Source of the DNA: Prescottella subtropica
GTDB lineage: Bacteria; Actinomycetota; Actinomycetes; Mycobacteriales; Mycobacteriaceae
Reading direction: 5' to 3'
Assembly: GCF_005434945.1 (NCBI RefSeq)
Contig: NZ_SKCH01000010.1
Span: 1-64,000, forward strand
Length of the DNA: 64,000 bases
The number at the start of each line of letters is the position of its first letter. Position 1 is the first letter of the stretch. Positions 30,261 through 48,247 of this stretch are shown piece after piece. Made by a program: the position numbers and the translations under genes. Under the pieces are notes generated by a model. The model was not told the DNA's origin and did no database searches. It saw only the letters and a program-made list of their open reading frames with translations.

Positions 30261-31759
30261 CGACCAATTCGACCACCGGACCACCAGTGTCCGACAAGAT
30301 CGACGGGGCGGTCCTCAAGATCGCGTCCGTGGTGGTGCTCGGCGCCATCATGTCCATTCTCGACGTCACCGTGGTCAGCGTCGCGGTACCCACGTTCATC
30401 CAAACGTTCGAGACCAGCTACGCCGTCGTCGCCTGGACGATGACCGCCTACACGCTGGCCCTGGCCACCGTCATCCCGGTCACGGGCTGGGCGGCCGACC
30501 GGTTCGGCACCAAACGTCTCTACATCGGCGCTCTGATCCTGTTCGTCGCCGGTTCGGTGGCGTGCGCGTTCGCGTGGGACATCACCTCGCTCATCGCGTT
30601 CCGCGTGCTGCAGGGCTTCGGCGGCGGCATGCTCATGCCGCTCGGTATGACGATCATGACCCGTGCCGCCGGCCCCGAACGGGTCGGACGCGTCATGGCC
30701 GTCCTCGGTATCCCGATGCTGCTCGGCCCGATCTGCGGCCCGATCCTCGGCGGCTGGCTGATCGACGCGGCCAGCTGGCACTGGATCTTCCTCATCAACC
30801 TGCCCGTCGGCATCATCGCCCTCGTGGCCGCGGTCAAGCTGCTGCCCAAGGACGAGGCGAGCCCGTCGCAGGCGTTCGACGTCGTCGGCATGCTGCTGCT
30901 CTCGCCCGGTCTGGCGCTGTTCCTGTTCGGTGTCTCCTCGATCCCCGAGACCGGCACCGTCGCGTCGGCGCGGGTGCTCGTCTCCGCCGGTGTCGGCCTG
31001 CTGTTGATCGTCGGTTTCGTCTTCCATGCGCTCCGCAAGGATCACCCGCTGATCGACCTGCACCTGTTCAAGAACCGGCAGCTGACCGTCGCCGTGCTCA
31101 CCACGTCGACGTTCATCGTCGCGTTCATGGGTGCCGGTCTGCTGTTCCCCAGCTACTTCATCCAGGTGCGCGGTGAGTCGACGCTCGCCGCCGGTCTGCT
31201 GCTCGCCCCACAGGGCATCGGCGCAATGGTGACCATGCCGATCGCCGGACGCCTCGTCGACAAGATCGGCCCCGGCAAGATCGTGCTCACGGGTCTGCCG
31301 CTGATCGCGCTCGGCATGTTCTCGTTCACCCAGCTGTCCGCCGACACACCGTACTGGCTGCTGCTCGGGTCGCTGTTCGTGCAGGGCCTCGGCATGGGCT
31401 GCACCATGATGCCGCTGATGACCGCCGCGATGGTCACCCTCAAGAACGAGATGATCGCCCGCGGCTCGACACTGATGAACATCGTCCAGCAGACCGCCGG
31501 CTCCATCGGCACCGCCACCATGTCGGTGATCCTCACCAACCAGCTGCTGTCCCGCGACCTCACCAACGAGAAGGTCGCGATGCAGCACGTCCAGGAATCT
31601 GACGCGACAGATCAGATCCTCAGCGCCGCATCCGACGCGTTCGGCAACACGTTCTTCATCGCGTTCCTGCTGCTGCTGTGCACGTTGATCCCCGCGTTCT
31701 TCCTGCCGCGGAAACTCACCGTCCAGAAGAGCAGCGACGCACCGGTGATGATGCACTGA
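30257..31759 (+). CDS. MFS exporter, DHA2 (EmrB/QacA) family
   Basis: The 500-residue protein has the 14-helix DHA2 pattern. Family motifs include LDVTVVSVAVPTFIQ in helix 1 and GWAADRFGTKRLYIG as motif A. Motif C is visible in GIPMLLGPICGPILGGWLI. It exports hydrophobic or cationic drugs by proton antiport. It is coupled to the MarR gene through ATGA. The substrate cannot be predicted. Confidence 0.9.
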   Translation: MTTNSTTGPPVSDKIDGAVLKIASVVVLGAIMSILDVTVVSVAVPTFIQTFETSYAVVAWTMTAYTLALATVIPVTGWAADRFGTKRLYIGALILFVAGSVACAFAWDITSLIAFRVLQGFGGGMLMPLGMTIMTRAAGPERVGRVMAVLGIPMLLGPICGPILGGWLIDAASWHWIFLINLPVGIIALVAAVKLLPKDEASPSQAFDVVGMLLLSPGLALFLFGVSSIPETGTVASARVLVSAGVGLLLIVGFVFHALRKDHPLIDLHLFKNRQLTVAVLTTSTFIVAFMGAGLLFPSYFIQVRGESTLAAGLLLAPQGIGAMVTMPIAGRLVDKIGPGKIVLTGLPLIALGMFSFTQLSADTPYWLLLGSLFVQGLGMGCTMMPLMTAAMVTLKNEMIARGSTLMNIVQQTAGSIGTATMSVILTNQLLSRDLTNEKVAMQHVQESDATDQILSAASDAFGNTFFIAFLLLLCTLIPAFFLPRKLTVQKSSDAPVMMH

Positions 31760-34465: not shown

Positions 34466-35410
34466 ATGACGCGTTTCGGAGTGATCAGCCACTGTGCGGG
34501 GGCACGGAGTTCGCGGGAGGAACTGCGCGACACCGTCGAATCGGCGTGCCGGGCCGAGGAGTTGGGGTTCGATTCGTTCTGGATCGCGCAGCATCATTTC
34601 GGTGCGCAGCGGGGGCATTCGCCGTCCCCGCTGGTGCTGCTCGCCGCGGTCGCGGAACGCACCACGTCCATCCGGCTCGGCACCGCGGTCGTCGTGGCGT
34701 CGCTCGAGGATCCGATCCGGCTGGCCGAGGACGCCGCAACCGTCGACGCCCTCAGTGGTGGCCGGCTCGAACTCGGGCTCGGGGCGGGCGCCGACCCGGA
34801 CACCGCCCGCCGGTTCGGCCGGGACCACGACCGGCGGCGGGACGAGTTGCGGCGCGCCGTCGACACCGTGATCGACCTGCTCGAGGGCGGTGGCATCGTC
34901 CCCGACGAGCGGGGGCTGCGGGACCGGATCTGGCTGGGCACCGCGTCGGAGTCCGGGATGCGGCTGGCCGCCGAGCGTGGGCTGGGGGTGCTGTCCGGGC
35001 GCAGTTCGACACCGCACGGACCCGACGACACGACCGCCGCCCGGATGCTCGACGAGTACACCCGGCACGCCGCCGATCCCCGTGTCGGACTGTCCCGTCC
35101 GGTGGCCTGCACCGACGACGTCGCGTCGGCGCGGGCCCTGCTCGCGGACGGGGTGACCGACTGGGTGCGGCGGGGCATCGAGGCCGGACGCTTCCCGGAC
35201 GGCTACACCGCCACCGACTACCTGGACCGCGGCCACATCTACCACGGGTCGGCGGAACAGGTCGCCGACGGCCTGCGCGGTGACGCCGGCCTGGTCTACG
35301 CCACCGACCTGCTGTGCCACGTGCAGCCGGTGCAGCTCACTGCGGCACAGTGGAATCCGATCCTGGAACGGATCGCCGGCCGGCTGCGTCCGCTACTGGC
35401 CGAGCGTTAG
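34466..35410 (+). CDS. Luciferase-like FMN-dependent monooxygenase
   Basis: This 314-residue (beta/alpha)8 flavin enzyme has the bacterial luciferase signatures FDSFWIAQHHFGAQRGHSPS, RLGTAVVVASLEDPIRLAED and VDALSGGRLELGLGAGADP. The start is ATG 34466 behind GAAGGA. Its 3' end overlaps that of the convergent ABC ATPase gene by 18 bases. Luciferase-like proteins of this kind are repeatedly found with peptide/nickel-type ABC importers (families like TIGR04027/TIGR04028), so it may process the imported compound. The substrate is unknown. Confidence 0.85.
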   Translation: MTRFGVISHCAGARSSREELRDTVESACRAEELGFDSFWIAQHHFGAQRGHSPSPLVLLAAVAERTTSIRLGTAVVVASLEDPIRLAEDAATVDALSGGRLELGLGAGADPDTARRFGRDHDRRRDELRRAVDTVIDLLEGGGIVPDERGLRDRIWLGTASESGMRLAAERGLGVLSGRSSTPHGPDDTTAARMLDEYTRHAADPRVGLSRPVACTDDVASARALLADGVTDWVRRGIEAGRFPDGYTATDYLDRGHIYHGSAEQVADGLRGDAGLVYATDLLCHVQPVQLTAAQWNPILERIAGRLRPLLAER

Positions 35411-36793
35411 GATGCGGTCGCACACTGACGCCAGTGCCCGGTCGTCGTGGCTGACCATCACCACCGCGGTCCCGGTGTCGGCCAGGTCGCGCAGGGCGCG
35501 GAGCACCTGCCGGCCCACCGTGGGGTCGAGTGCTGCGGTGGGTTCGTCGGCCAGCACCAACCGGGCACCCGAGACGAGTGCGCGGGCGAGCGCGACCCGC
35601 TGGCACTGCCCACCGGACAGCGCGGCCGGGCGGGCCTGCAGCGGTATCGATTCCAGCCCGAGCCGGTGCAGCGCCGCCGCCGCGGCCTCGCGGCCCCGGG
35701 TTCCGCGTAGCCGGACCGGTTCGACGACCGACTTCCAGATCGGCCACCGCGGATCGAGGCTGCCGACCGCGTCCTGGAACACCATCTGGACCGACCCCGG
35801 TGCGGGGGCGGCGGCGCCGGACCACGAGACGGTCCCGGTCGTGGCCCGCTCCAGACCGGCCAGGATCCGGAGCAGCGTGCTCTTGCCGGAACCGGACGGC
35901 CCTCGGAGACCGAGGATCTCGCCGCGGCACACCCGGAACGTCGTCGGCGGGACGACCCGCCTGGCCCCGTAGTCGTGGGCGACGGCATCGACATTCACCA
36001 CCACGTCGCCGTCGGGGGCGGTGGTCGACACGCCGGTCATCGGGTCGTGTGCGTGGACCAGTGTGCGGGTGTACGGATCCTGCGGGGCCCGGAGCACCCG
36101 GTCGGCGTCGCCGTGCTCCACGATCTCGCCGTCCTTCAGGACGTAGACGTGGTCGGCGAACCTCGCGACGAGCGGCAGGTCGTGACTGACGATCAGCAGG
36201 CTCTGGGACTCCGCGACCAGCCGGGCCAGGACGGCGTCGGCGGTGACCGCGTCCAACGCGGACGTGGGTTCGTCGGCCACCACGAGCGCCGGTGCGAGCG
36301 CGGTCGCCGCAGCGATCCCCGCACGCTGCTGCATGCCGCCGGACCACGTGTGCGGCCAGTCCCGCACCCGGCCGGCACCGTGCTCGATACCGAGGGCGGT
36401 GAGCCGGTCGGCGGCCCCGGCCGCGGGGACGGGCAGCGACTTCGCCCGCCACGCCTCCTCGACGTTCGCCCCGATCCGCAGCAGCGGGTCCAGCCCGCCG
36501 TAGGCGTCCTGGTTGACGTACCCGACATCGCTGCCGCGCAGGGCCCTCAGTGCCGTCCCGGACATGCCCTGTACGTCGTGCCCGTCGATGCGGACGGTCC
36601 CGGACACGGTCGCCGTCGACGGCAGCAGCCCCAGCAGCGCCTTGACCAGAGTGCTCTTGCCGCAGCCGCTCTCACCGATCACGGCGACGACCGACCCGGC
36701 CGGAACGGTGACGGTGACGTCGTGCAGGGCGCGGCGCCCGTCGGCGTAGGTGACGGTGAGTCCGGTGATCCCGGCCGCGGAGGGGTCGGTCAT
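35393..36793 (-). CDS. Fused double ATPase of a peptide/nickel-type ABC importer
   Basis: The 466-residue protein contains two complete ABC domains. The first has Walker A GESGCGKST, signature WSGGMQQRAG and Walker B VVADEPTSALD. The second has Walker A GPSGSGKST, signature LSGGQCQRVALARAL and Walker B VLADEPTAALDP. It thus fuses the DppD- and DppF-like subunits into one chain. The start is the ATG at 36791-36793, overlapping the upstream permease stop by four bases. It energises the two permeases encoded just upstream. Confidence 0.92.
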   Translation of the reverse strand: MTDPSAAGITGLTVTYADGRRALHDVTVTVPAGSVVAVIGESGCGKSTLVKALLGLLPSTATVSGTVRIDGHDVQGMSGTALRALRGSDVGYVNQDAYGGLDPLLRIGANVEEAWRAKSLPVPAAGAADRLTALGIEHGAGRVRDWPHTWSGGMQQRAGIAAATALAPALVVADEPTSALDAVTADAVLARLVAESQSLLIVSHDLPLVARFADHVYVLKDGEIVEHGDADRVLRAPQDPYTRTLVHAHDPMTGVSTTAPDGDVVVNVDAVAHDYGARRVVPPTTFRVCRGEILGLRGPSGSGKSTLLRILAGLERATTGTVSWSGAAAPAPGSVQMVFQDAVGSLDPRWPIWKSVVEPVRLRGTRGREAAAAALHRLGLESIPLQARPAALSGGQCQRVALARALVSGARLVLADEPTAALDPTVGRQVLRALRDLADTGTAVVMVSHDDRALASVCDRILTLGQ

Positions 36794-37620
36794 CGGCGTC
36801 CCTCCGGGGTGTGTCGACGGTGCAGGCTGTCGGCGATCAGGTTGGCGGCCGCGGTCATCGCGAGGATCGCCGTCGCCGGCACGATCAGCAACCACGGTGC
36901 GGCGGTGAGGAACTTGCGGGCGTCGCCGAGCATCGCGCCGAGTTCCGCGTCCGGCTGTTGGACGCCGAGACCGAGGAACGACAGCCCGGCCAGCGACACC
37001 ACGACCGCACCCAGGCGCAGGGTCGCGACGATCGACAGCCGCGGCAGTACCGCGGGCACGATGTGCCGCAGTGCGATCCGGACGGTCCCGGACCCGGACA
37101 GCCGTGCCGCCGTGATGTACGGCCGGTGGAGCACCTCGAGGGTGAGGGCGCGGGCCAGTCGGGCGTCGGCCGCCCACGACGAGACGACGAGGGCGAGAAG
37201 AAGGTTCACGTATCCCGGGCCGAGGACCCCGACGAGGGCCAGCGCCAGTACGAGACTGGGCACCGCGAGCAGGATGTCGACGATCCGACTGAGGACCCCG
37301 TCGACCCAGCGTCCGGACAACGCGGCGAACACGCCGACGAGCAGGCTCACGGTCATCGACCCGGCGAGCACGGCCAGCGCCGACAACAGCGACCGGCGCA
37401 GGCCGACGGCGAGCCGGGCGGCCTGGTCGCGGCCGTACTGGTCGGTCCCGAGCCAGTGTTCGGCGCTCGGCGGACGGAGTTTGGCGCCGTAGTCGGGCAG
37501 GTTCGGGTCCACGGACACCACCAGCGGACCGAGGGCCGCGACGGCCACGACGAGGACCGCCAGTCCGGCGCCGGTCCACAGCGCGAGGTCGCGGCGTGGG
37601 GGAGCGGTGCGGCCGGTCAT
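36790..37620 (-). CDS. ABC importer permease (DppC/NikC type)
   Basis: The 276-residue permease has an N-terminal helix and the DppC/NikC motif HWLGTDQYGRDQAARLAVG. The EAA-type loop ARLSGSGTVRIALRHIVPAV contacts the ATPase. About six transmembrane helices are visible. The start MTGRTAPPRRD (ATG at 37618-37620) overlaps the preceding permease stop. The open frame extending upstream is not coding. Confidence 0.92.
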   Translation of the reverse strand: MTGRTAPPRRDLALWTGAGLAVLVVAVAALGPLVVSVDPNLPDYGAKLRPPSAEHWLGTDQYGRDQAARLAVGLRRSLLSALAVLAGSMTVSLLVGVFAALSGRWVDGVLSRIVDILLAVPSLVLALALVGVLGPGYVNLLLALVVSSWAADARLARALTLEVLHRPYITAARLSGSGTVRIALRHIVPAVLPRLSIVATLRLGAVVVSLAGLSFLGLGVQQPDAELGAMLGDARKFLTAAPWLLIVPATAILAMTAAANLIADSLHRRHTPEGRR

Positions 37621-38570
37621 ACGGGGGACTCCCGGTTCCGTAGTCGCGGATCGATCAGTGCCGCAACCGCGTCCGCCGCCAGGTTGACCACCACGTAGGT
37701 GACGGTGGCGAACATCGCGAACGCCTGGATGACCGGCAGGTCCCGGGTGGCGACCGAGGTGACGACCCACGCCCCGAGTCCGGGCCAGGTGAACACGGTT
37801 TCGACGATCGCCGCCCCACCGAGGACACTGCCGGCGCCTACGGCCACCGCATGCAGGTACGACGGCAGGCTGTGCGGCAGGGCGTGCCGCAGCAGCACCC
37901 GCCGCGTGGTGGCACCGCGACTGCGGGCGACCGTCGCCACCGACGACTCCGTGACCTCCACCAGATTCGACCGCAGCAGCCGTGACCACGTGTCGAACAG
38001 CCCGAACGCCAGGCAGATCGCCGGCATCGCGACCGTCGCCCACGAGCCGTCCAGGACGACCCTGCCGACACCGAGATCGATGACGACGACCTGGATGAGC
38101 ACGAGACCCACCACGAATCCCGGGGTGGACGCCGACAGCAACGCGATCACCCGGGCGACCGTGTCGGGCCAGCGGTCCCGGTAGCGGGCGGCGAGCAGGC
38201 CGAGGCCGAGCGACAGCAGCACGGCCAGGACCAGTGCGGCCGACGCGAGACGCAGTGTGGGGCCGAGTCGTTCGGCGAACTCGGTGGCCACGGGCCGACC
38301 GGTGACGTACGACGACCCGAAGTCGAGTCGCACGACACCGGCCAGCCAGTGCAGGTACTGCTGCGGCAGCGACAGGTCGAGGCCGAGCTGTTCCCGGACC
38401 TCGGACAGCTGTTCGTCCGTCGGCTCCGGGATCCCCTGCGCGGTCAGCGTCAACCGGGCCGGATCCCCGGGTGCCAGCGGCAGCAGCGCCCAGATGAGCA
38501 GGCTCGCACCCCAGGCGGCGCCCAGCGCCTGCAGCAGGCGCAGGACGCCGGAGCGCAGGCGGGATCTCAC
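37617..38570 (-). CDS. ABC importer permease (DppB/NikB type)
   Basis: The 317-residue permease has the DppB/NikB pattern: an N-terminal helix, PLAPGDPARLTLTAQGIPEP, then LDFGSSYVTGRPVATEFAER and the EAA loop ARSRGATTRRVLLRHALPHS. The start is GTG 38570, overlapping the stop of the binding protein gene by four bases. All four importer genes are therefore translationally coupled. Confidence 0.92.
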   Translation of the reverse strand: MRSRLRSGVLRLLQALGAAWGASLLIWALLPLAPGDPARLTLTAQGIPEPTDEQLSEVREQLGLDLSLPQQYLHWLAGVVRLDFGSSYVTGRPVATEFAERLGPTLRLASAALVLAVLLSLGLGLLAARYRDRWPDTVARVIALLSASTPGFVVGLVLIQVVVIDLGVGRVVLDGSWATVAMPAICLAFGLFDTWSRLLRSNLVEVTESSVATVARSRGATTRRVLLRHALPHSLPSYLHAVAVGAGSVLGGAAIVETVFTWPGLGAWVVTSVATRDLPVIQAFAMFATVTYVVVNLAADAVAALIDPRLRNRESPV

Positions 38571-40159
38571 GCGCCGGTGTCGTACCGGATGTGGCGTCGG
38601 ACGTTGGAGACCTCGTAGCCGGACCACTGCTGCGAGGTGACGACCGTGAAGTACTTGAAGGTGCCCGCGACGACGTACGCCTGCTCGGTCACCAGGATCT
38701 CCTGGGCCCGCTTCAGTAGGGCGTCACGCTCGCCGTCGTCGAACGTGCTGCGCAGCGTGTCGCCGATCGCGTCGATCTCCGGATTCGACAGGCCCTGCAT
38801 GTTCGACGAGCCGCCGGTCGTCCACCGCACCAGGTACGGCTGGACGGGATCGGCTGTGCCGGACAGCGATCCACTCAGCGCGATGGACGACTCCCAGCCG
38901 GCCGGGTTCTCCTTCACCGCCGCGGAATCCTCGGCGACGTCGATTTTCAGCTCGAACCCGGCCCGCGCGACCTGGTCCTGGATGCCGATGGCGACGTCGG
39001 TGGTCTCCGGTCCCTGCGCCTGCGTGACGAAGCGGACCGTGAGACGCTGCCCGTCCTTGGTGCGGACACCGTCGGCGCCCGGAACCCAGCCGGCCTTGTC
39101 CAGCAACGCCTTCGCGGACTCCACGTCGTACTTCTGGTTGCCCAGAGCGAACGACAGCTGCTGCGGGTACAAGCCTTCGGCGGCGTCGAACGAGCCGTTG
39201 CCGATGTTGTCGGCCAGCCCCTGGTAGTCGATGGCCTGCACGAACGCTTTGCGGACGTCGACGTCGGTGAAGATGCCCTGCTTCAGGTTCATCTCGACGA
39301 GCAGCGACTGCAGCGCCTCCGGCGAGTTCTTCACCGCCACGTCGTCGCGGCCCGAGAGTGCCAGTCGCGCACCGGTCGACGGGTAGAACGCCATGTCGGC
39401 CTCGCCGCTCTCCACGCCGGCGATACGGGCCTGCTCGTCGGGCACGACGTCGACACTGATCCCGGCCAGGGCCGGGGTGCCCTGCCAGTACCCGTCGTAG
39501 CGGGCGAGCTCCAGATCCGTCGGCGTCCACGCGGTGATCGCGTACGGGCCGGTGTAGGCGCCGGATCCGACGATCTTCGCGGAGTCGCCGCCGGCGGCCT
39601 CGACGGCCTCGACGTCGTAGATCTGCAGCGAGTTGTCGCGGGCGGCCAGCCCCGCGGGCACCATCGCGTTCGGGGTGGGGGTGTGCAGCAGCACGGTGTC
39701 GTCGTCCTCGGCGACCGCGCGGGTGCCCGGCTGCAGGTACACCTGCGCGGCCTTCGACCTGTCGATCTGCCGGCTCAACGCGGCCGCGACCGCCTGCGCC
39801 GTCACGGGTGTGCCGTTCTGGAACGTCTGACCGTCCCGCAATTCGACGGCCCACGTGAGGTCGTCGCGGCGCTCGACGCTCTCCGCGAGCCACGGGCTGA
39901 TCGTGCCGTCCTCGTCCACCTGGAGGAGGTTCTCGGCGATGCCCCAGTCGAACAGCCAATTGGTGCCGGTGGCGACGGGGTCGAGACCGGCGATCTTGTA
40001 GGAGTTGTAGATCGTCAGGTGATCGTCGGTGGGGCCGGACCGGGTGTCGGCCGTACTCGACGAGCAGCCGGCGACGGCGACGGCCGCGGCGACAGTGACG
40101 ATGCCGGCGCACAGCACCGACTGCCACCCGGTGCGGGTGGTGGGTATCGAGTTGTTCAT
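38567..40159 (-). CDS. Substrate-binding lipoprotein of a peptide/nickel-type ABC importer
   Basis: This 530-residue SBP_bac_5 protein (DppA/NikA/OppA class) has a signal peptide with lipobox VAGC, giving lipidated Cys32. LTIYNSYKIAGLDPVATGTN and the FVQAIDYQGLADNIGNGSFD region are typical of the class. The start is the ATG at 40157-40159 behind GAGGATGG. It heads the importer operon and follows a cobalamin riboswitch by 26 bases, so uptake should fall when B12 is plentiful. Peptides, nickel or cobalt chelates, or corrinoid-related molecules are possible ligands. Confidence 0.92.
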   Translation of the reverse strand: MNNSIPTTRTGWQSVLCAGIVTVAAAVAVAGCSSSTADTRSGPTDDHLTIYNSYKIAGLDPVATGTNWLFDWGIAENLLQVDEDGTISPWLAESVERRDDLTWAVELRDGQTFQNGTPVTAQAVAAALSRQIDRSKAAQVYLQPGTRAVAEDDDTVLLHTPTPNAMVPAGLAARDNSLQIYDVEAVEAAGGDSAKIVGSGAYTGPYAITAWTPTDLELARYDGYWQGTPALAGISVDVVPDEQARIAGVESGEADMAFYPSTGARLALSGRDDVAVKNSPEALQSLLVEMNLKQGIFTDVDVRKAFVQAIDYQGLADNIGNGSFDAAEGLYPQQLSFALGNQKYDVESAKALLDKAGWVPGADGVRTKDGQRLTVRFVTQAQGPETTDVAIGIQDQVARAGFELKIDVAEDSAAVKENPAGWESSIALSGSLSGTADPVQPYLVRWTTGGSSNMQGLSNPEIDAIGDTLRSTFDDGERDALLKRAQEILVTEQAYVVAGTFKYFTVVTSQQWSGYEVSNVRRHIRYDTGA

Positions 40160-40184: not shown

Positions 40185-40335
40185 TCGCCACAGGTGTCCT
40201 GGCTCCCGAATCGACACTCGCCCCCGGCCTTCCAACCCCTCGGGGTCGTGGCCGAACGTTGGGGGTTCGCTCCTCGGTGACAGTTGCGGGACAGCCCCGG
40301 ATTCCCACCGGTGTTCCCTGCGACGAGACGCACCC
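40185..40335 (-). promoter_or_regulatory. Cobalamin riboswitch of the ABC importer operon
   Basis: On the minus strand the leader reads CAGGGAACACCGGTGGGAAT (about 40301-40320), then CCCGCAACTG, the hallmark core of cobalamin aptamers. The B12 box GAGCCAGGACACCTG lies at about 40191-40206. Its end is so near the RBS that translational control is likely. The aptamer boundaries are approximate. Confidence 0.88.
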
Positions 40336-40336
40336 T

Positions 40337-40366
40337 ACTAGACCGATTCGGGCAACTCGGATGCAA
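40337..40366 (-). promoter_or_regulatory. Probable promoter of the ABC importer operon
   Basis: On the minus strand TTGCAT (40361-40366), an 18-base spacer and TCTAGT (40337-40342) would start transcription right at the 5' end of the riboswitch. Confidence 0.45.
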
Positions 40367-40479
40367 CAGTCGACCGATGTTCCCGGACAGCCGCTGTACG
40401 CGCGCCGGGAACTGCCCCTAAACTGGCGGACGCAGTTGGTTCGCCTGCCCCGGTCGTGAGGAGCCCCGAAGACCGGGGG

Positions 40480-40672
40480 CGGCGTCGAAGCGCATCCACC
40501 CCTCCGGGAGGGGTGCGTGAGAGGGAACCCGGTGGGAATCCGGGACTGTCCCGCAGCGGTGAGTGGGAACGACCGCCGTCATGAGCACTGGACCCCAGGG
40601 TCCGGGAAGCGACGGCCAGTAGGTTCGGTATCGATACCGGATGCCCGCGAGTCCGAAGACCTGCCCACTGTG
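40480..40672 (+). promoter_or_regulatory. Cobalamin riboswitch of metE
   Basis: The core GAGGGAACCCGGTGGGAATC (about 40521-40540), CCCGCAGCGG and the B12 box GAGTCCGAAGACCTGCCC (about 40649-40666) identify a cobalamin aptamer. A hairpin GTCGGGC/GCCCGAC (40672-40692) follows and may belong to the expression platform. A TAAACT -10-like element lies at 40419-40424. Known cobalamin riboswitches switch metE off when B12 allows MetH to work. The boundaries are approximate. Confidence 0.92.
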
Positions 40673-40821
40673 TCGGGCGCGTCGTGCCCGACGGGCCACC
40701 GCCTCGGGGAATGGGCGTGTAGACCACTCGTGTTGCCGCATGCGTTCGTTCGGGGCTTCGAGGGGTGTACCAGTTCTGCCGGCGGTGGTTCATCCCGCGA
40801 ATGCACACTGGAGACACACAC

Positions 40822-43083
40822 GTGACTACCTCGTTCACCGCAACCGTACTGGGCTCGCCCCGTATCGGTCCTCGTCGCGAACTCAAGAAGGCCGTCGAGG
40901 CCTACTGGGCGGGCCGCATCGGCGCCGACGCCCTGGCCGCTGTCGGTGCCGATCTGCGTCGTCGGATGTGGATCGGACTCCGGGACGCCGGCCTGGACTC
41001 CGTTCCGGTCAACACGTTCTCGTACTACGACCAGATGCTCGATACAGCCGTCATGCTCGGGGCACTGCCGGACCGGGTCATCGGACTCGGCACCGACCTC
41101 GACCGCTACTTCGCGGCCGCCCGCGGCACCGACACCGTCGTGCCCCTCGAGATGACCAAGTGGTTCGACACCAACTACCACTACCTGGTTCCGGAGATCA
41201 CCGCAGCGACGTCGTTCGTACTCGACGCGTCGAAGGTTCTGGCCGAATTGCAGGAGGCCCGCGACCTCGACGTTCCCGCGCGGCCCGTCGTCATCGGCCC
41301 GGTCACGTTCCTGCTGCTGTCGAAGGCGGTCGGCTCGGACACACCGCTGCTCGACCGGATCGACGAACTCGTGCCCCTGTACGCCGACCTCCTGGGCAGA
41401 CTGCACGAGGCCGGAGCGGACTGGGTGCAGATCGACGAACCGGCGCTGGTCGCCGATCGGACGGCGGACGAGATCGCCGTCGCCGCCCGCGTCTACGACC
41501 GTCTCGCCGCGATCCCGCGGCGGCCCGCGATCCTGGTCGCGTCGTACTTCGGCAGCCTCGGCGACGCGTTGCCCGCGCTCGCGGCGACCGGGATCGAGGG
41601 CCTTGCCATTGACGCCGTCGCCGGGTCCGACGTGCTCGGCGCGGTCCCCGACCTCGCGCACAAGCACGTCGTCGCGGGCGTCGTGGACGGCCGGAACGTC
41701 TGGCGCACCGACCTCGATCGGACCCTGACCACGCTGGACGCACTGCGGGGGAGCGTCGGGTCGCTGGCGGTGTCGACATCGTGCTCGCTGCTGCACGTGC
41801 CGTACACGCTCGACGCCGAGACGAATCTCGATGCCGCGCTTCGGTCGTGGCTGGCGTTCGGGTCGGAGAAGACCGAGGAGGTGGTGACCCTCGCGACCGC
41901 ACTGACACGGGGTCGTGACGCGGTGGCCGACCGTCTCGTGTCCGATCGGGCCGCGCGGTCGACGCGGACCTCCGACCCGCGTCTGCACGACGATGCCGTC
42001 CGCACCCGGCTCGCGTCGATCCTGGCGTCCGATCCGGGCCGGTCGCCGGCGGATCGTCGTCGCGCAGCCCAGTCCGGACTGAACCTGCCGGTGCTGCCGA
42101 CCACGACGATCGGCTCGTACCCGCAGACGATGCAGATCAGGGTCGCGCGCGCGGCGCTGCGCAAGGGGGAGATCACCGAGTCGGAGTACCGCGACCGGAT
42201 GCGGTCGGAGATCGTCGATGTGGTTGCACTGCAAGAGGAACTGGGACTCGATGTGCTCGTGCACGGTGAGCCGGAGCGCAACGACATGGTGCAGTACTTC
42301 GCGGAACAGCTCGACGGTTTCGCCGCGACGGTGAACGGCTGGGTGCAGTCGTACGGCAGTCGGTGCGTGCGGCCACCGATCCTGTTCGGTGACGTCCGGC
42401 GTCCGGTGGCGATGACCGTCGATTGGATCTCGTACGCGCAGTCGCTGACGGACCGTCCGGTCAAGGGCATGCTCACCGGTCCCGCGACGATCCTGGCGTG
42501 GTCGTTCGTGCGGGACGACCAGCCCTTCGCCGAGTCGGCGAACCAGGTGGCGCTGGCCATTCGCGACGAGACCGTCGACCTGCAGAACGCAGGGATCGCC
42601 ATTGTCCAGGTCGACGAGCCGGCGCTGCGGGAGTTGTTGCCGCTACGTGCGGCCGGTCGGCAGGAGTACCTCGACTGGTCGGTCGGATCGTTCCGCCTCT
42701 CGACGTCGGGTGTCGAGGACTCGACCCAGATCCACACGCACCTGTGCTACTCGGAGTTCGGTGAGGTGATCGACGCGATCGTGAACCTCGACGCGGACGT
42801 GACCTCGATCGAGGCGGCGCGCTCGCACATGGAGGTGCTCGATGACCTCGACGCGGTCGGGTTCGACCGGGGGGTCGGTCCGGGTGTCTACGACATCCAC
42901 TCGCCCCGCGTCCCGAGTGTCGACGAGATCGTCACGTCCCTGAAGGAAGCGCTGGAAGCCGTTCCGGCGGAACGCCTGTGGGTCAATCCCGACTGCGGTC
43001 TCAAGACCCGTGGACGCGTCGAGGTCGAGGCGTCGCTGCGGAACATGGTGGAGGCCGCGAAGCGGGTGCGCGCGAGCCTGTGA
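40822..43083 (+). CDS. metE: Cobalamin-independent methionine synthase
   Basis: MetE transfers a methyl group from 5-methyltetrahydropteroyltriglutamate to homocysteine. The 753-residue protein starts at GTG 40822 ([15 protein letters not shown]), after GGAG, and shows the usual N-terminal duplicated barrel. The catalytic C-terminal barrel has [52 protein letters not shown] (zinc ligands His and Cys) and [11 protein letters not shown] (zinc Cys). It is controlled by the riboswitch upstream. Confidence 0.97.
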
Positions 43084-43087
43084 CCGA

Positions 43088-43129
43088 AAACTGTGGCCCC
43101 GCACCGGTATCGGTGCGGGGCCACAGTTT
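43088..43129 (+). terminator. Bidirectional terminator between metE and prpC
   Basis: A perfect 19-bp stem (43088-43106 with 43111-43129) closes on a tetraloop. T-rich ends occur in both directions, and the two flanking genes converge on it. Confidence 0.9.
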
Positions 43130-44250
43130 CAGGCCACCACGGGCCGTTGTGGGACGCCCGTGTACTCGCTGAGCGGCCGGATCAGGGCGTTCGATTCACC
43201 CTGTTCGATGATGTGCGCGGTCCATCCGACGATACGGCTCATCACGAAGATCGGGGTGAATACCTCGATGTCGAAGCCGAGCAGGTGGTACGTCGGGCCG
43301 GTGGGGAAGTCGAGGTTCGGCGCGATCCCGGTGGCAGCGTCCATGGTGCGTTCGAGGATCTCGTACATCTGCACCCACTTGTCGCCGTCGGTGCGGGCGG
43401 CGACATCCCGGAACGCTGCGCGCATCGTCGGCACCCGCGAATCGCCACTGCGGTAGACACGGTGACCGAAGCCCATGACCTTCTCCTTGCGGGCCAGCTT
43501 GTCCCGCATCCAGTCCTCGGCGCGCTCGGGTTCACCGATCTCGAGCATGTCGTGCATGACGGCCTCGTTCGCGCCGCCGTGCAGCGGACCCTTGAGGGTG
43601 CCGATCGCGGCGGTGACCGCGCTGTAGATGTCCGACAGCGTCGAGGTGACCACGCGGGCTGCGAACGTCGACGCGTTGAAGCTGTGCTCCGCGTACAGGA
43701 TCAGCGACACCTCGAATGCCGTGACCAGTTCCGGTTCCGGTACCTCGCCGAAGCACATGCGTAGAAAGTTCTCGGCGAACCCGAGGTGACTGTGCGGTGC
43801 GATCGGGTCGAGGCCGCGGCGGCGACGATGGTCTGCGGCGACGATCGTCGGCAGGACCGCCATCATGCGGAGTGCCTTCTCCCGGTTGACGTTCGGCGAG
43901 TTGTCGGCCTCCTCCGGATCCTCCGCGCCGAGGTAGCTGATCGCGGTGCGGACCACGTCCATCGGATGGCAGTTGTCGGGTAGCTTCGCCACCAGCGACA
44001 GCATCGAGCGGTCGGCCCGACGGCTCGCTCGCTCCCGCTGACAGAACAGCTCGAGCTGGGCGTCGGTGGGCAGCTCGCCGTTCCACAGCAGGTAGGCGAC
44101 CTGTTCGAAGCTGCAGTGCGCGGCGAGATCCTCGACCGCGTAGCCGCGGTAGGTCAGCGAGTTGCTCTCGGGCACCACCTTGGAGATTGCGGTGGTGTCG
44201 ACGACGACACCGGCGAGGCCCTTGTGGATCGTCGGGGCGGTGTTCGTCAT
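43129..44250 (-). CDS. prpC: 2-methylcitrate synthase
   Basis: PrpC condenses propionyl-CoA with oxaloacetate in the methylcitrate cycle, and it often also makes citrate. The 373-residue protein has the citrate synthase catalytic set: His224 in GPLHGGANEA, His263 in GFGHRVY and Asp314 in LDFPTG, plus His189 in EHSFNAS. It overlaps prpB by four bases and is last in the prpDBC operon. Confidence 0.95.
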   Translation of the reverse strand: MTNTAPTIHKGLAGVVVDTTAISKVVPESNSLTYRGYAVEDLAAHCSFEQVAYLLWNGELPTDAQLELFCQRERASRRADRSMLSLVAKLPDNCHPMDVVRTAISYLGAEDPEEADNSPNVNREKALRMMAVLPTIVAADHRRRRGLDPIAPHSHLGFAENFLRMCFGEVPEPELVTAFEVSLILYAEHSFNASTFAARVVTSTLSDIYSAVTAAIGTLKGPLHGGANEAVMHDMLEIGEPERAEDWMRDKLARKEKVMGFGHRVYRSGDSRVPTMRAAFRDVAARTDGDKWVQMYEILERTMDAATGIAPNLDFPTGPTYHLLGFDIEVFTPIFVMSRIVGWTAHIIEQGESNALIRPLSEYTGVPQRPVVA

Positions 44251-45161
44251 TGGTTCCCTCCGAGTGTGAAAGTGAAGATGCCGGAATCGAATTCGTTGTA
44301 GCGGTCGTACTCGAGCAGTTCGTACAGTCGCGATCGGGTCTGCATGGACCCGAGCAGACTCTCCTGGGTGCCGGTGGCGTGGATCTCCCGCAGGCCGGCC
44401 TCGATCGCGCCCATCGCCAGTCGCAGTGTGGTGACCGGGTAGATCACCGCGTTGTAGCCGATGTCCTCGAGTGTCCGCGCCGGGATCAGCGTCGACTTGC
44501 CGAACTCGGTCATGTTCGCGAGCAGCGGGATGTCCACGGCGTAACGGAACTTCGTGAAGTCGGCCTCAGTGTGCAGTGCCTCGGTGAAGATCATGTCCGC
44601 GCCGGCGTCGGCGTACGCCTTCGCACGTTCGATCGCCGCGTCGATGCCGTCGATCCCGGCGGCATCGGTGCGGGCACAGATCACGAAGTTCGGATCCCGC
44701 CGGGCCGCGACGGCGGCGCGCAGACGACGGACCATCTCGTCGGTGGGGACGATGGCCTTGCCGTCGAGGTGGCCGCAGCGCTTGGGATTGACCTGGTCCT
44801 CGAGGTGCAGGCCGGCGATCCCGGCATCCTCGGCGGCCAGGACGGTGCGGGCCGCCGACATCGGCTCCCCGAAGCCGGTGTCGGCGTCGATCAGTACCGG
44901 CAGATCCGTCACCCCGGCGATCTGCCGACTGTGCCCGACCACCTCGGTGAGCGTCGTCAGGCCGATGTCGGGCAGGCCGAGCGCGGCGGAGAACGCGCCG
45001 CCGGAGACGTACACGCCCTCGAACCCGATCTCCTGGATCAGTTTGGCGGTCAACGGGTTGATCGCACCGGGCAGACGCTGGATCGTGCCCGAGGTCAGCC
45101 CCGCCCGGAACGCGGCGCGCTTGTCGGCGGGGGAGGTGGCGGCGGCGATGAGGCCGGTCAT
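44247..45161 (-). CDS. prpB: 2-methylisocitrate lyase
   Basis: PrpB cleaves 2-methylisocitrate to pyruvate and succinate. The 304-residue protein has the isocitrate lyase superfamily motif KRCGH at 127-131 and metal-site residues in IDADTGFGEP and HLEDQ. M. tuberculosis H37Rv lacks prpB and uses isocitrate lyase; this organism has a dedicated gene. It starts one base after the prpD stop. Confidence 0.95.
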   Translation of the reverse strand: MTGLIAAATSPADKRAAFRAGLTSGTIQRLPGAINPLTAKLIQEIGFEGVYVSGGAFSAALGLPDIGLTTLTEVVGHSRQIAGVTDLPVLIDADTGFGEPMSAARTVLAAEDAGIAGLHLEDQVNPKRCGHLDGKAIVPTDEMVRRLRAAVAARRDPNFVICARTDAAGIDGIDAAIERAKAYADAGADMIFTEALHTEADFTKFRYAVDIPLLANMTEFGKSTLIPARTLEDIGYNAVIYPVTTLRLAMGAIEAGLREIHATGTQESLLGSMQTRSRLYELLEYDRYNEFDSGIFTFTLGGNQ

Positions 45162-45162
45162 G

Positions 45163-46665
45163 TCAGAACAGTCCCTTCGGCGACTTCGGGGCGTGCGCGA
45201 GGACGTCGCCGGTGACGGTGAACGTGAGCTGGTCCAGCTCGCCGGCTTTCAGTTCGGGGGTGCGCTGTGCGGCGTCGAGGAAGCGGTCCTGTTCGGCCGG
45301 GTCGACGACACCGTCGGAGAGGGTGCGGAACTTCGCGACGTACTGGTCGCGGGCGAACGGGCGGGCGCCGAGCGGGTGCGCGTCGGCGACCGCGAGTTCG
45401 TCGACGATCACCTCGCCGCTCTTCAGCGTGATCTCGGCACGGGCACCGAACGCCTTCTCGGCTGGATCGGTGGAGTGGTAGCGGCGCGTCCACTCCGGAT
45501 CCTCGGCGGTGGAGATCTTGCGCCACAGTCCGATCGTGTCGGGGCGCTGTGCCCGCTCGGGGGCGTACGAGCGCTCGTGGTGCCACGTGCCGTCCTGCAG
45601 GGCGACCGCGAAGATGTACATCACCGAGTGGTCGAGGGTCTCGCGGCTGGCCGTCGGGTCGAACTTCTGCGGGTCGCCGGACCCGGTGCCGATCACGACG
45701 TGGGTGTGGTGGCTGGTGTGCAGCACGATCGACGCGATCTGCTCGAGGTCGCCGATCCGTTCGCGCATCCGGCGGGCCAGGTCGATCGGGGCCTGGCTCT
45801 GGTACTCCGCGGAGTGCTCCTTGGTGTAGGTGTCCAGGATCGCGCGCTTCGCCTCGCCCGGGCCGGGCAGCGGCACAGCGTATTCGGCGTTCGGGCCGCC
45901 GAGCAGCCACGCGATGACACCGTCCTCGCCCTCCCAGATCGGGGACGGTGCGCCCTCACCGCGCATCGCCCGGTCGACGGCCTCGACGGCCATCTTCCCG
46001 GCGAACGCCGGCGCGTACGCCTTCCAACTGGAGATCTCGCCCTTGCGGGACTGACGGGTCGCCGTGGTGGTGTGCAGCGCCTGCCCGACCGCCTGGTACA
46101 CGGTCTCGGTGTCCAGCCCGAGCAGCGCGCCGATGCCGGCTGCCGCGGACGGTCCGAGGTGCGCGACGTGGTCGATCTTGTGCTCGTGCAGGCAGATCGA
46201 GCGCACCAGGTCCACCTGGACCTCGTAGCCGGTGGCGATGCCGCGGATCAGATCGGCACCGCTGCGGCCGGCGTGCTGGGCGACCGCGAGGATCGGTGGA
46301 ATGTTGTCGCCCGGGTGCGAGTATTCCGCGGCCAGGAACGTGTCGTGGAAGTCGAGTTCACGCACCGCGACCCCGTTGGCCCACGCCGCCCACTCGGGCG
46401 AGTACCGGCCGGTCACGCCGACGACCGTCGCACCCGGCGTGTACGGGTGGGCCACGGCCTGGGCGCGGGCGTTCACTACAGGGCGGCGCGTCACCGATGC
46501 CGCCGCGACGGCCGCGTTGTCGATGATCCGGTTCACGATCATCTCGGTGCTGTCGGCGGGAACCTCGACCGGATCGGTCGCGACCTCGGCGATCTTCCAT
46601 GCGAGGTGCTCGCACTTCGGGAAGGTCTCGGCCGAGCGGTGGGTGCGGACGGAATGGGTCTTCAA
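45163..46665 (-). CDS. prpD: 2-methylcitrate dehydratase
   Basis: PrpD dehydrates 2-methylcitrate in propionate catabolism. The 500-residue MmgE/PrpD protein contains [40 protein letters not shown] and [21 protein letters not shown] place the start at TTG 46665 ([14 protein letters not shown]), with AAGGG upstream. The frame is open to 46875, but that part lies in the divergent control region and in the start of the regulator gene. It is first in the prp operon. Confidence 0.93.
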
Positions 46666-46804
46666 CTTCGGTGCCCTTCGTCGAAACTGTGCTGTGTCTT
46701 GCAGCGTATGCACGCCGGGCACCGCCGGAAAGTGGCTGAACATGCGTATTTCGGTGGTGTGGGTGGCCGGGTTCTGCGAATGGTGCGAATGCGCGGGGTC
46801 GTGG
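46666..46804. promoter_or_regulatory. Divergent prpD-prpR control region
   Basis: This 139-base gap separates prpD from its divergent regulator gene. It contains a direct repeat TGCGAATG at 46775-46782 and 46784-46791 (nine-base period), a candidate regulator binding site. RamB/PrpR proteins are known to bind such intergenic regions. No clear promoter elements are seen. Confidence 0.35.
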
Positions 46805-48247
46805 TTGAGTGACGCGGTGCAGAAGATATACGGCGGTCCCAGGCTGCGCCGGCTGCGTGAGGAGAGGGGGCTCACGCAGCTGGCGCTCGCCCGGATCCTG
46901 GATCTGTCGGCCAGCTACGTCAATCAACTCGAGAACGACCAGCGACCGCTCACCGTGCCGGTGCTACTCAAACTGAACGCGATGTTCGACCTGGATGCGC
47001 AGTTCTTCGCCGCCGAGTCCGACGCGCGACTGGCCGCCGACCTGCAGGACGTGCTGACCGCGCTCGGGACACCGGCGTCGTCGTCGACCATCGACGAGTT
47101 CGTGGCGCGTATGCCCGAGGTGGGGTACGCGCTGGTGGGCATGCACCGCCGGCTGCAGGCGGCGACCGAACAGCTCGAACAGTTCAGTGCGCATTTCACG
47201 GCCCCGTCCTCCGCGGACGCCGGTGAGGTGACCCCGATGCCGTTCGAGGAGGTGCGAGACTTCTTCTACGACAGGCATAACCACATCGCCGAACTCGACG
47301 ACGCCGCCGAACGGCTGTTCGTCGGCAGCGGTCTGCGGATCGGGTCGCTCGACACCCAGTTGACGGCGCTGCTCGAATCCGGATACGGCATCGTCGTCCG
47401 GTTGCGGAGCGACCCGCCCGACCGGCCCGGCCCCAAACGCCACTACGACGCCACCGGGCGTGTGCTGACCCTGTCGCGGCACCTGTCGCCCGGTCAGCGT
47501 GCCTTCCAGATCGCCACGCAGCTCGCGTTCCTCACCCAGTCGGAGGTGATCGACCGGCAGGTGGTCGCCGCGGTGACGCTCAGTGAGAACGCCCGGGAAC
47601 TCGCGAAGATCGGCCTGGCCAACTACTTCGCGGGCGCACTGTTGTTGCCGTACAACGAGTTCCTCGATGCCGCGGAGCGGCTGCACTACGACATCGACAT
47701 GCTGGCACTGCAGTTCGAGGTGGGGTTCGAGACGGTCTGCCATCGGTTGTCGACGATGCAGCGCCGCACCCGGCGGGGTGTTCCGTTCTTCTTCGTCCGC
47801 ACCGACCGGGCCGGGAACATCTCGAAACGGCAGTCCGCCACTGCCTTCCACTTCTCGCGGGTCGGTGGCAGCTGTCCCCTGTGGGTGGTGCACGACGCCT
47901 TCGGCACCCCCGACCGCATCCTCACCCAGGTGGCTCGCATGCCGGACGGGCGCACCTACCTGTGGATCGCGCGGACCGTCGACGGGGGTGCGTCCCCGTA
48001 CGGCACTCCCGAACGGAACTTTGCCGTCGGCCTCGGCTGCGACATCACCCACGCCGAACGACTCGTCTACTCGCAGGGACTGCGGCTCGACGAACGGATG
48101 TCGCCGGTGCCGATCGGTGCCGGATGCAAGATCTGTGAACGCACCGACTGCGCGCAGCGGGCCTTTCCGCAGATCGGCCGTCCGGTGCGCGCCGACGTGA
48201 ACGTCAGCAGCAGGCTGCCGTACCCGCCGGTCGAACGCGACCACTGA
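46805..48247 (+). CDS. prpR: Methylcitrate/short-chain fatty acid regulator PrpR (RamB family)
   Basis: PrpR/RamB proteins control propionate and acetate genes. The protein has an N-terminal XRE helix-turn-helix ([20 protein letters not shown]). A helical middle domain follows, then a C-terminal domain with four cysteines ([24 protein letters not shown]) known in PrpR to bind an Fe-S cluster. The start is uncertain: TTG 46805 gives 480 residues, GTG 46817 gives 476. It is divergent from prpDBC, consistent with local activation. Confidence 0.9.

Follow-up and report, generated by a model that had tools for sequence, protein, structure and literature searches.

A nickel/peptide-class ABC importer led by a cobalamin riboswitch beside metE in Prescottella subtropica: a candidate for cobalt uptake

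Introduction

Genes behind cobalamin riboswitches have been assigned to B12 synthesis, to transport of B12 or its precursors, to cobalt transport and to B12-independent isozymes (PMC3766115); metE falls in the last of these classes. In Mycobacterium tuberculosis, metE has an upstream cobalamin riboswitch and its transcription is described as suppressed with B12 (PMC3603451).

Among transporters, the closest described systems are the NikABCDE importers of Clostridium tetani and Desulfitobacterium hafniense, which have a B12 riboswitch in front and were presented as exceptions to nickel specificity, with cobalt as the predicted substrate (Zhang et al. 2009, PMC2667541). For 40 Actinobacteria a table of the same paper gives no NikABCDE; its entries for Cbi/Nik ECF transporters are 2 cobalt and 13 unassigned, those for NiCoT are 2 nickel, 1 cobalt and 11 unassigned, and other predicted cobalt transporters are entered for 17. 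A further precedent is CbtJKL of Sinorhizobium meliloti, an importer under an adenosylcobalamin riboswitch that was first taken for a B12 transporter and proved to carry cobalt (PMC7689651). By this reassignment, cobalt and corrinoid transport appear hard to tell apart by sequence.

We analysed a stretch of 64,000 nucleotides from the actinobacterium Prescottella subtropica (contig NZ_SKCH01000010.1, positions 1 to 64,000; hereafter the window), in which a riboswitch-led importer and a riboswitch-led metE stand back to back. As with NikABCDE of the two Clostridia, an importer of the nickel/peptide class is under a cobalamin riboswitch and cobalt is proposed from the regulation. Unlike these systems, as they are described in the cited paper, the family of the window has a fused ATPase, occurs in Actinobacteria and Alphaproteobacteria, has a ferredoxin-like partner in some members and adjoins metE. 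With CbtJKL it shares the general design of an ABC importer with a binding protein (SBP) under a riboswitch; CbtJ, however, is described as BtuF-like, whereas the SBP of the window is of family 5 (PF00496) and its permeases are PF00528 proteins, not of the FecCD type. The FecB-type genes on two other contigs of the same genome (C12 and C20) look closer to CbtJKL, judged by the Pfam family Peripla_BP_2. The gene order (SBP, two permeases, ATPases) is that of Escherichia coli NikABCDE, and nickel-type models match all parts; unlike there, the SBP is only 22% identical, the ATPase halves are fused and a B12 riboswitch stands in front. The arrangement of metE recalls M. tuberculosis, with the difference that the window has a second, divergent riboswitch before the importer.

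The prediction of cobalt for riboswitch-led NikABCDE in two Clostridia was already made; the family spanning two phyla, the separate riboswitch lineages and two further riboswitch-led FecB-type genes are added here. In the open-licence PMC literature we recognised no paper on the actinobacterial and alphaproteobacterial importer family, though an earlier mention is possible.

Results

Two cobalamin riboswitches of separate lineage

The first-pass annotation of this DNA had proposed two outward-pointing cobalamin aptamers about 150 bases apart. Both were confirmed by Rfam 15 cmscan with the cobalamin model RF00174 (gathering score 31.5 bits). The metE aptamer lies at 40495..40663 on the plus strand (84.3 bits, E 2.7e-19); the importer aptamer lies at 40192..40319 on the minus strand (82.8 bits, E 6.9e-19), its 3′ end 32 bases from the ATG of the SBP gene. 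The two are divergent, face outward and are separated by 175 bases. The host genome (4.4 Mb) contains four RF00174 matches over the cut-off, two of which are this pair. The single-strand minimum free energies of the two aptamers were not clearly lower than those of shuffled sequences (z 1.08 and −0.81), and the identification of the riboswitches thus rests on the covariance model and on conservation.

In the aligned core, the importer riboswitch shares 92% identity with its counterpart in Prescottella equi and 82% with those of three further genomes (G175, G022 and G687); in G022 a second nickel-type transporter also has a leader that is 83% identical to it. For the metE riboswitch, identity is 81% to the leader of metE in G022 and 82% to the metF leader in P. 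equi. Between the two riboswitches of the window it is 55%. A local duplication of one riboswitch was ruled out by this comparison (55% between the copies in the window versus 81–92% to counterparts in relatives): each kind has stayed with one gene or pathway, and the pair therefore did not arise by a recent duplication; by these alignments the two riboswitches are separate lineages.

Inspection by eye found CACGAGGAUG, with a likely ribosome-binding site, ahead of the start codon in all five importer leaders of the window's family; CACGAGGAUG was absent, also by eye, from the importer leader of Propionicicella. Neither a terminator nor a sigma-70 promoter was found between positions 40100 and 40900 of the window. 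The lack of a terminator-like site there, together with the gap of 32 bases between aptamer and start codon, suggests that the importer riboswitch acts on translation.

An importer of the nickel/peptide class

Behind the minus-strand aptamer the first-pass annotation had placed a binding protein, two permeases and a fused double ATPase of the peptide/nickel class, and the Pfam domains agree. The SBP (38567..40159, minus strand, ATG start) is a lipoprotein of SBP family 5, nickel/peptide class (PF00496, E 1.8e-64). It is followed on the same strand by a NikB-like permease (37617..38627; PF00528; Opp2B 293.5 bits, cut-off 350 missed), a NikC-like permease (36790..37629; PF00528; Opp2C 239.6 bits, cut-off 300 missed) and a fused ATPase with NikD-like and NikE-like halves (35393..36826, the start being taken as 36826), in which PF00005 matches two stretches. 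The best stretch for TIGR02770 is 34–260 and that for TIGR02769 is 294–475, both below cut-off. A single cluster therefore holds SBP_bac_5, two BPD_transp_1 and two ABC_tran domains, as is characteristic of an ABC importer of the nickel/peptide class. In some related units the genes are annotated only as ‘ABC transporter’.

The names of the nearest matches could be read as those of a nickel transporter under an unusual regulator: the nearest NCBIfam model of the SBP is Opp5A_nikA (229 bits, cut-off 600 missed) and its nearest solved chain, 3t66_A, is named a nickel ABC transporter. We consider this reading very unlikely. The NCBIfam nickel equivalog cut-offs were missed by all parts (NikA-type, 229 against 600 and 139 against 393; NikB-type, 294/350; NikC-type, 240/300; NikD, 265/319; NikE, 252/333), and control by B12 would not be expected for nickel. 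The nickel site of E. coli NikA we take to consist of Arg97, Arg137, Tyr402 and His416. In an alignment at ∼22% identity, in which residue placement is unsure, Arg97, Arg137 and His416 are missing from all seven aligned SBP rows of the window's clade (clade I, see below); Tyr402, with the same uncertainty of placement in this ∼22%-identical alignment, is retained only in L019. An E. coli-type nickel transporter was rejected on the missed cut-offs and the largely absent site residues. Since the presumed NikA residues are mostly not kept, the ligand of the importer may be a chelate or may be held differently.

Solved relatives of the SBP also include proteins named as heme-binding (3m8u, 6ofq and 3tpa), a point in favour of corrinoids as ligands, to which we return below. 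The first-pass annotation had further stated that no classical B12 importer, corrin synthesis gene or cobalt transporter lies nearby. This holds for the 16 window proteins scanned (importer and metE included), none of which exceeded the cut-off of such a family; three of the 16 matched nothing at the threshold used.

metE, methylcitrate cycle genes and a flavin monooxygenase

The gene behind the plus-strand aptamer had been called metE, and the call was upheld: the protein exceeds the cut-off of the B12-independent methionine synthase family TIGR01371 (1036 bits, cut-off 930), and PRK05222 likewise matches over its cut-off (1077 bits). The ORF opens at 40765; we chose GTG at 40822 as the probable start, giving coordinates 40822..43083 on the plus strand. 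A metE with its own riboswitch adjoins the importer in the window and in G022. In P. equi, metE is ∼8 kb from the importer, and no riboswitch was seen in a stretch that covers only the end of the gene. On a Shinella plasmid (L045:1-4906), metE and a unit of the nickel-type importer are ∼2 kb apart and are led by one cobalamin riboswitch each, the pairing of the window thus being met in another phylum.

Beside metE lie prpC, prpB and prpD of the methylcitrate cycle, a B12-free route for propionate (window 43129-46875, minus strand, and 46232-48247, plus strand), together with a RamB-like regulator (560 bits, cut-off 700). The end of prpC is ∼100 bases before the importer riboswitch in P. equi (L011), and prpC is ∼10 kb from the importer in G022. 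Together, the importer, metE and prp genes have the look of a neighbourhood that serves growth under B12 shortage.

On the other side of the importer, a luciferase-like flavin monooxygenase (LLM) is encoded at 34466..35410 on the plus strand (TIGR04027, 190 bits, cut-off 412.9 missed). Its gene is convergent with the ATPase gene and their 3′ ends overlap by 18 bases; a convergent overlap of 18–41 bases is present in all five loci of the window's family. A riboswitch for this monooxygenase was looked for between positions 31500 and 36500 of the window, where no cobalamin match was found at E up to 5; two other Rfam families matched in this interval below their cut-offs, which we take as chance. 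In P. equi the monooxygenase gene is located downstream of a riboswitch and metF (L011:14402-16769; the riboswitch is of the cobalamin class, and FecB-, FecCD- and ATPase-like genes lie beyond).

G022 has a monooxygenase gene downstream of its second riboswitch-led nickel-type transporter. In this second operon (L013:12773-18803), which has its own cobalamin riboswitch, the monooxygenase gene comes after the ATPase gene; the riboswitch is the one 83% identical to that of the window importer, and the SBP is only ∼27% identical to that of the window. These identities look like those of a leader copied to a different transporter. The NCBIfam model nearest to the window monooxygenase is KPN_01858 and a weak match of the SBP is KPN_01854; these neighbouring locus numbers suggest, from the names alone, a similar pairing of monooxygenase and SBP in Klebsiella.

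Such neighbours bring up a second reading, by which the importer would take up methionine, a peptide, a sulphur compound or another substance needed in B12 shortage, on which the flavin monooxygenase would act. The company of metE (adjoining in the window and G022, and ∼2 kb away with its own riboswitch in Shinella), the place of the P. equi monooxygenase gene after a riboswitch and metF, and the prpDBC genes next door all agree with it. We regard it as improbable nonetheless, given that no methionine-transport family is among the matches of the importer and that the search for the monooxygenase was negative in Propionicicella and in the alphaproteobacterial loci tested, many of which keep riboswitch and importer.

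The riboswitch follows the lineage of the binding protein

The host belongs to the same genus as P. equi, its nearest importer-bearing relative, whose SBP (strain DSM 20307, NZ_LWTX01000002.1) is 84% identical to that of the window. Searches with the SBP gave a patchy distribution. At E 1e-60 or better it was found in 4 of 251 genomes of the family, its own included. A six-row SBP profile matched 2 of 396 genomes of the phylum at E 1e-120 and 2 of 118 genomes of genus g22 at E 1e-100; a ten-row profile matched 5 of 376 genomes of the phylum at E 1e-65 and 13 of 289 genomes of the class of a Loktanella genome at E 1e-60. A scan of contigs of named genomes returned P. equi, Propionicicella superfundia (61% SBP identity) and the Loktanella MAG (36%). 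Among plasmids, 52 records matched the SBP at E 1e-30, and of 14 examined, four carry a riboswitch unit (L022, L043, L044 and L045) and ten do not; one more unit, L049, was reached via the partner gene described below and not by SBP search. Patchy distribution and plasmid copies suggest that the importer spread by horizontal transfer.

A maximum-likelihood tree of 41 SBPs contains clade I (8 rows), clade II (8), clade Z (16) and nine other rows. Duplicates were counted once (L018 with L011; L058 with L019; L027 and L077 with the window; L028 and L078 with L013), and L062, which has one in-frame stop, fills 36% of the tree columns. Clade I (support 100/99) unites the window, P. equi, G175, G022, G687, Propionicicella superfundia, the Loktanella MAG and a Roseinatronobacter plasmid, and so spans Actinobacteria and Rhodobacterales. 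A cobalamin riboswitch stands in front in 8/8 rows, all of which were found by SBP similarity alone; as far as such conservation can tell, this bears out the B12 control of the importer that the first-pass annotation had proposed.

Clade II (100/100, Alphaproteobacteria) has a riboswitch in six of eight rows, a figure biased by four units (L043, L044, L045 and L049) that were picked because the partner gene adjoined. The other four came from a profile search, and two of them (L061 and L062) have a riboswitch; for L060 the contig ends 279 bases upstream, and L059 (genome G1022) is a true miss, with no riboswitch within 4.5 kb by Rfam or within 12.7 kb by motif. Clade Z (100/100) has none in its 16 rows (15 by Rfam, L080 by motif only); four of its seven members with annotated loci adjoin zinc or metal ABC genes. 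Of the nine other rows, one of which is E. coli NikA (scanned by motif only), two have a riboswitch (L064 of G882 and the second SBP of G022), both outside clades I and II, which are themselves joined weakly (83/36). The pattern of 8/8, 6/8 and 0/16 indicates that the regulator follows the SBP lineage, and the metal neighbours in clade Z make the wider SBP family look metal-linked.

The riboswitch is not a perfect marker of a high SBP score, a notion that was rejected because RF00174 was found in only 4 of 15 alphaproteobacterial matches at E 1e-60 or better: L058 (the Loktanella locus again), L061, L062 and L064. Among the five strongest of these matches, three have a riboswitch, one is cut by the contig end and one (L059) is without; among the ten weaker there is one. 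Three further actinobacterial matches (L079, L080 and L081) have no riboswitch by motif. Negatives of the motif scan are softer than those of Rfam, as it recovered the known riboswitch in 15 of 19 loci; it found nothing in 26 Rfam-negative loci or in the E. coli nik stretch, which was scanned by motif only. For many of the loci taken from genome searches, just ∼1.5 kb of upstream sequence was covered.

Redox partner genes

In six loci (L019, L022, L043, L044, L045 and L049) a gene for a protein with a C-terminal (2Fe-2S) ferredoxin-like region is placed between riboswitch and SBP gene. No homologue was found in the five loci of the window's family, in Propionicicella, in any of ten other loci searched (L023-L026 and L052-L057) or in L073-L076, three of which bear a riboswitch. 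The N-terminal half of the protein had no Pfam match in L019 and L022, and the sole NCBIfam match, in L014, had E 0.15; the impression of a CbiX-like N-terminal half was dropped on these results. Downstream of the Propionicicella importer lies a FhuF-like ORF (21.3 bits, cut-off 25.2), the end of which reads CC-x10-C-x2-C, presumably the iron-sulphur pattern of FhuF.

Homologues of the ferredoxin-like protein also occur with transporters of another type. One is encoded by the last gene of the riboswitch operon on contig C12 of the host genome, after FecB, FecCD and ATPase genes. Homologues end FecB-type operons on two Rhodococcus plasmids as well, with a riboswitch over the cut-off before the operon only in the second, and in Azospirillum a homologue shares a riboswitch-bearing locus with cobN, nikR and a gene for a TonB receptor.

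These observations bear on the main rival explanation, namely that the importer carries corrinoids, B12 precursors (cobinamide or cobyric acid) or B12 itself. B12 riboswitches commonly govern transporters of B12 and its precursors, as summarised in PMC3766115, and both the heme-binding names among the solved SBP relatives and the travelling of the partner with FecB-type transporters, one of them by a TonB receptor and cobN, fit such ligands. Against this, and in particular against ligands of corrinoid size, the incomplete gene tables of the four annotated gram-negative units with the partner gene (L022, L044, L045 and L049) list no TonB receptor; the host genome already has two other B12-riboswitch-led genes for FecB-type binding proteins; and the nearest named families, as well as part of a related clade, are metal-linked. 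On balance we hold corrinoid transport to be unlikely, though of all alternatives it deserves most attention.

Other riboswitches of the host and its need for cobalt

The two RF00174 sites of the host outside the window pair precede the FecB-type binding-protein genes just mentioned (L014 on C12 and L015 on C20). The C12 operon (L014:3724-7547) consists of a FecB-type SBP, a FecCD-like permease, an ATPase and the (2Fe-2S) ferredoxin-like protein; the nearest NCBIfam name of its SBP is a putative F420-0 transporter, below cut-off. The C20 site (L015:7569-8738), ahead of another FecB-type SBP, is better matched by RF01482 (56.6 bits). Two sub-threshold RF00174 sites, L005 (C4:15944-16020) and L006 (C1:270801-270914), score 31.3 and 28.4 bits, and nothing over the cut-off was found in longer stretches around them (L016 and L017).

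The host genome encodes CobN, over its cut-off, and MetH. By the single marker CobN, the host would make B12 and would therefore need cobalt. One CbtA, a predicted cobalt transporter, is present, and CbiM and NicO were not found; given this CbtA, the importer is not the sole candidate for cobalt transport. P. equi has the importer together with two CbtA and one CbiM. Across the 118 genomes of genus g22, the importer is found in 2, CbtA in 105 and neither in 12; G022, with the importer and no CbtA, would fit a replacement of CbtA by the importer, but G687 has both.

Discussion

We propose that the importer of the window is B12-repressed and takes up cobalt, as an ion or a small chelate, and give this reading a probability of roughly 0.6. 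The first-pass annotation had named as possible substrates cobalt, corrinoids or B12 precursors, and compounds required in B12 shortage; the comparison with relatives narrows this list towards cobalt. The SBP family, its metal-linked relatives and the ferredoxin-like partner shared with other B12-riboswitch transporter operons favour it; so do the presence of cobN and metH in the host, the absence of a TonB receptor from the incomplete gene tables of the four annotated units with the partner gene, and the published prediction for riboswitch-led NikABCDE of two Clostridia (PMC2667541). Plentiful B12, probably as adenosylcobalamin, would bind both aptamers and shut off metE and the importer alike; when B12 is short, both would be expressed, and the cobalt imported would serve the making of B12.

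A more speculative extension, to which we attach a rather low probability, takes the members in both phyla as one B12-riboswitch importer family whose substrate would be chelated cobalt (as a cobalt metallophore or an inert Co(III) chelate), the metal being freed inside the cell by a lineage-specific redox partner. This role would fall to the (2Fe-2S) ferredoxin-like protein in Alphaproteobacteria and to the FhuF-like protein in Propionicicella; for the window's family the flavin monooxygenase is a possible partner.

The supply of B12 is set by that of cobalt, and for many candidate importers of cobalt the assignment is a prediction. The present comparison draws attention to a (2Fe-2S) protein that accompanies B12-controlled transporters of two unrelated ABC types, and it offers a likely function for genes annotated just as ‘ABC transporter’. 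A lineage of B12-riboswitch-led, nickel-type importers that spans two phyla would thus be a concrete and testable candidate for a cobalt-import family.
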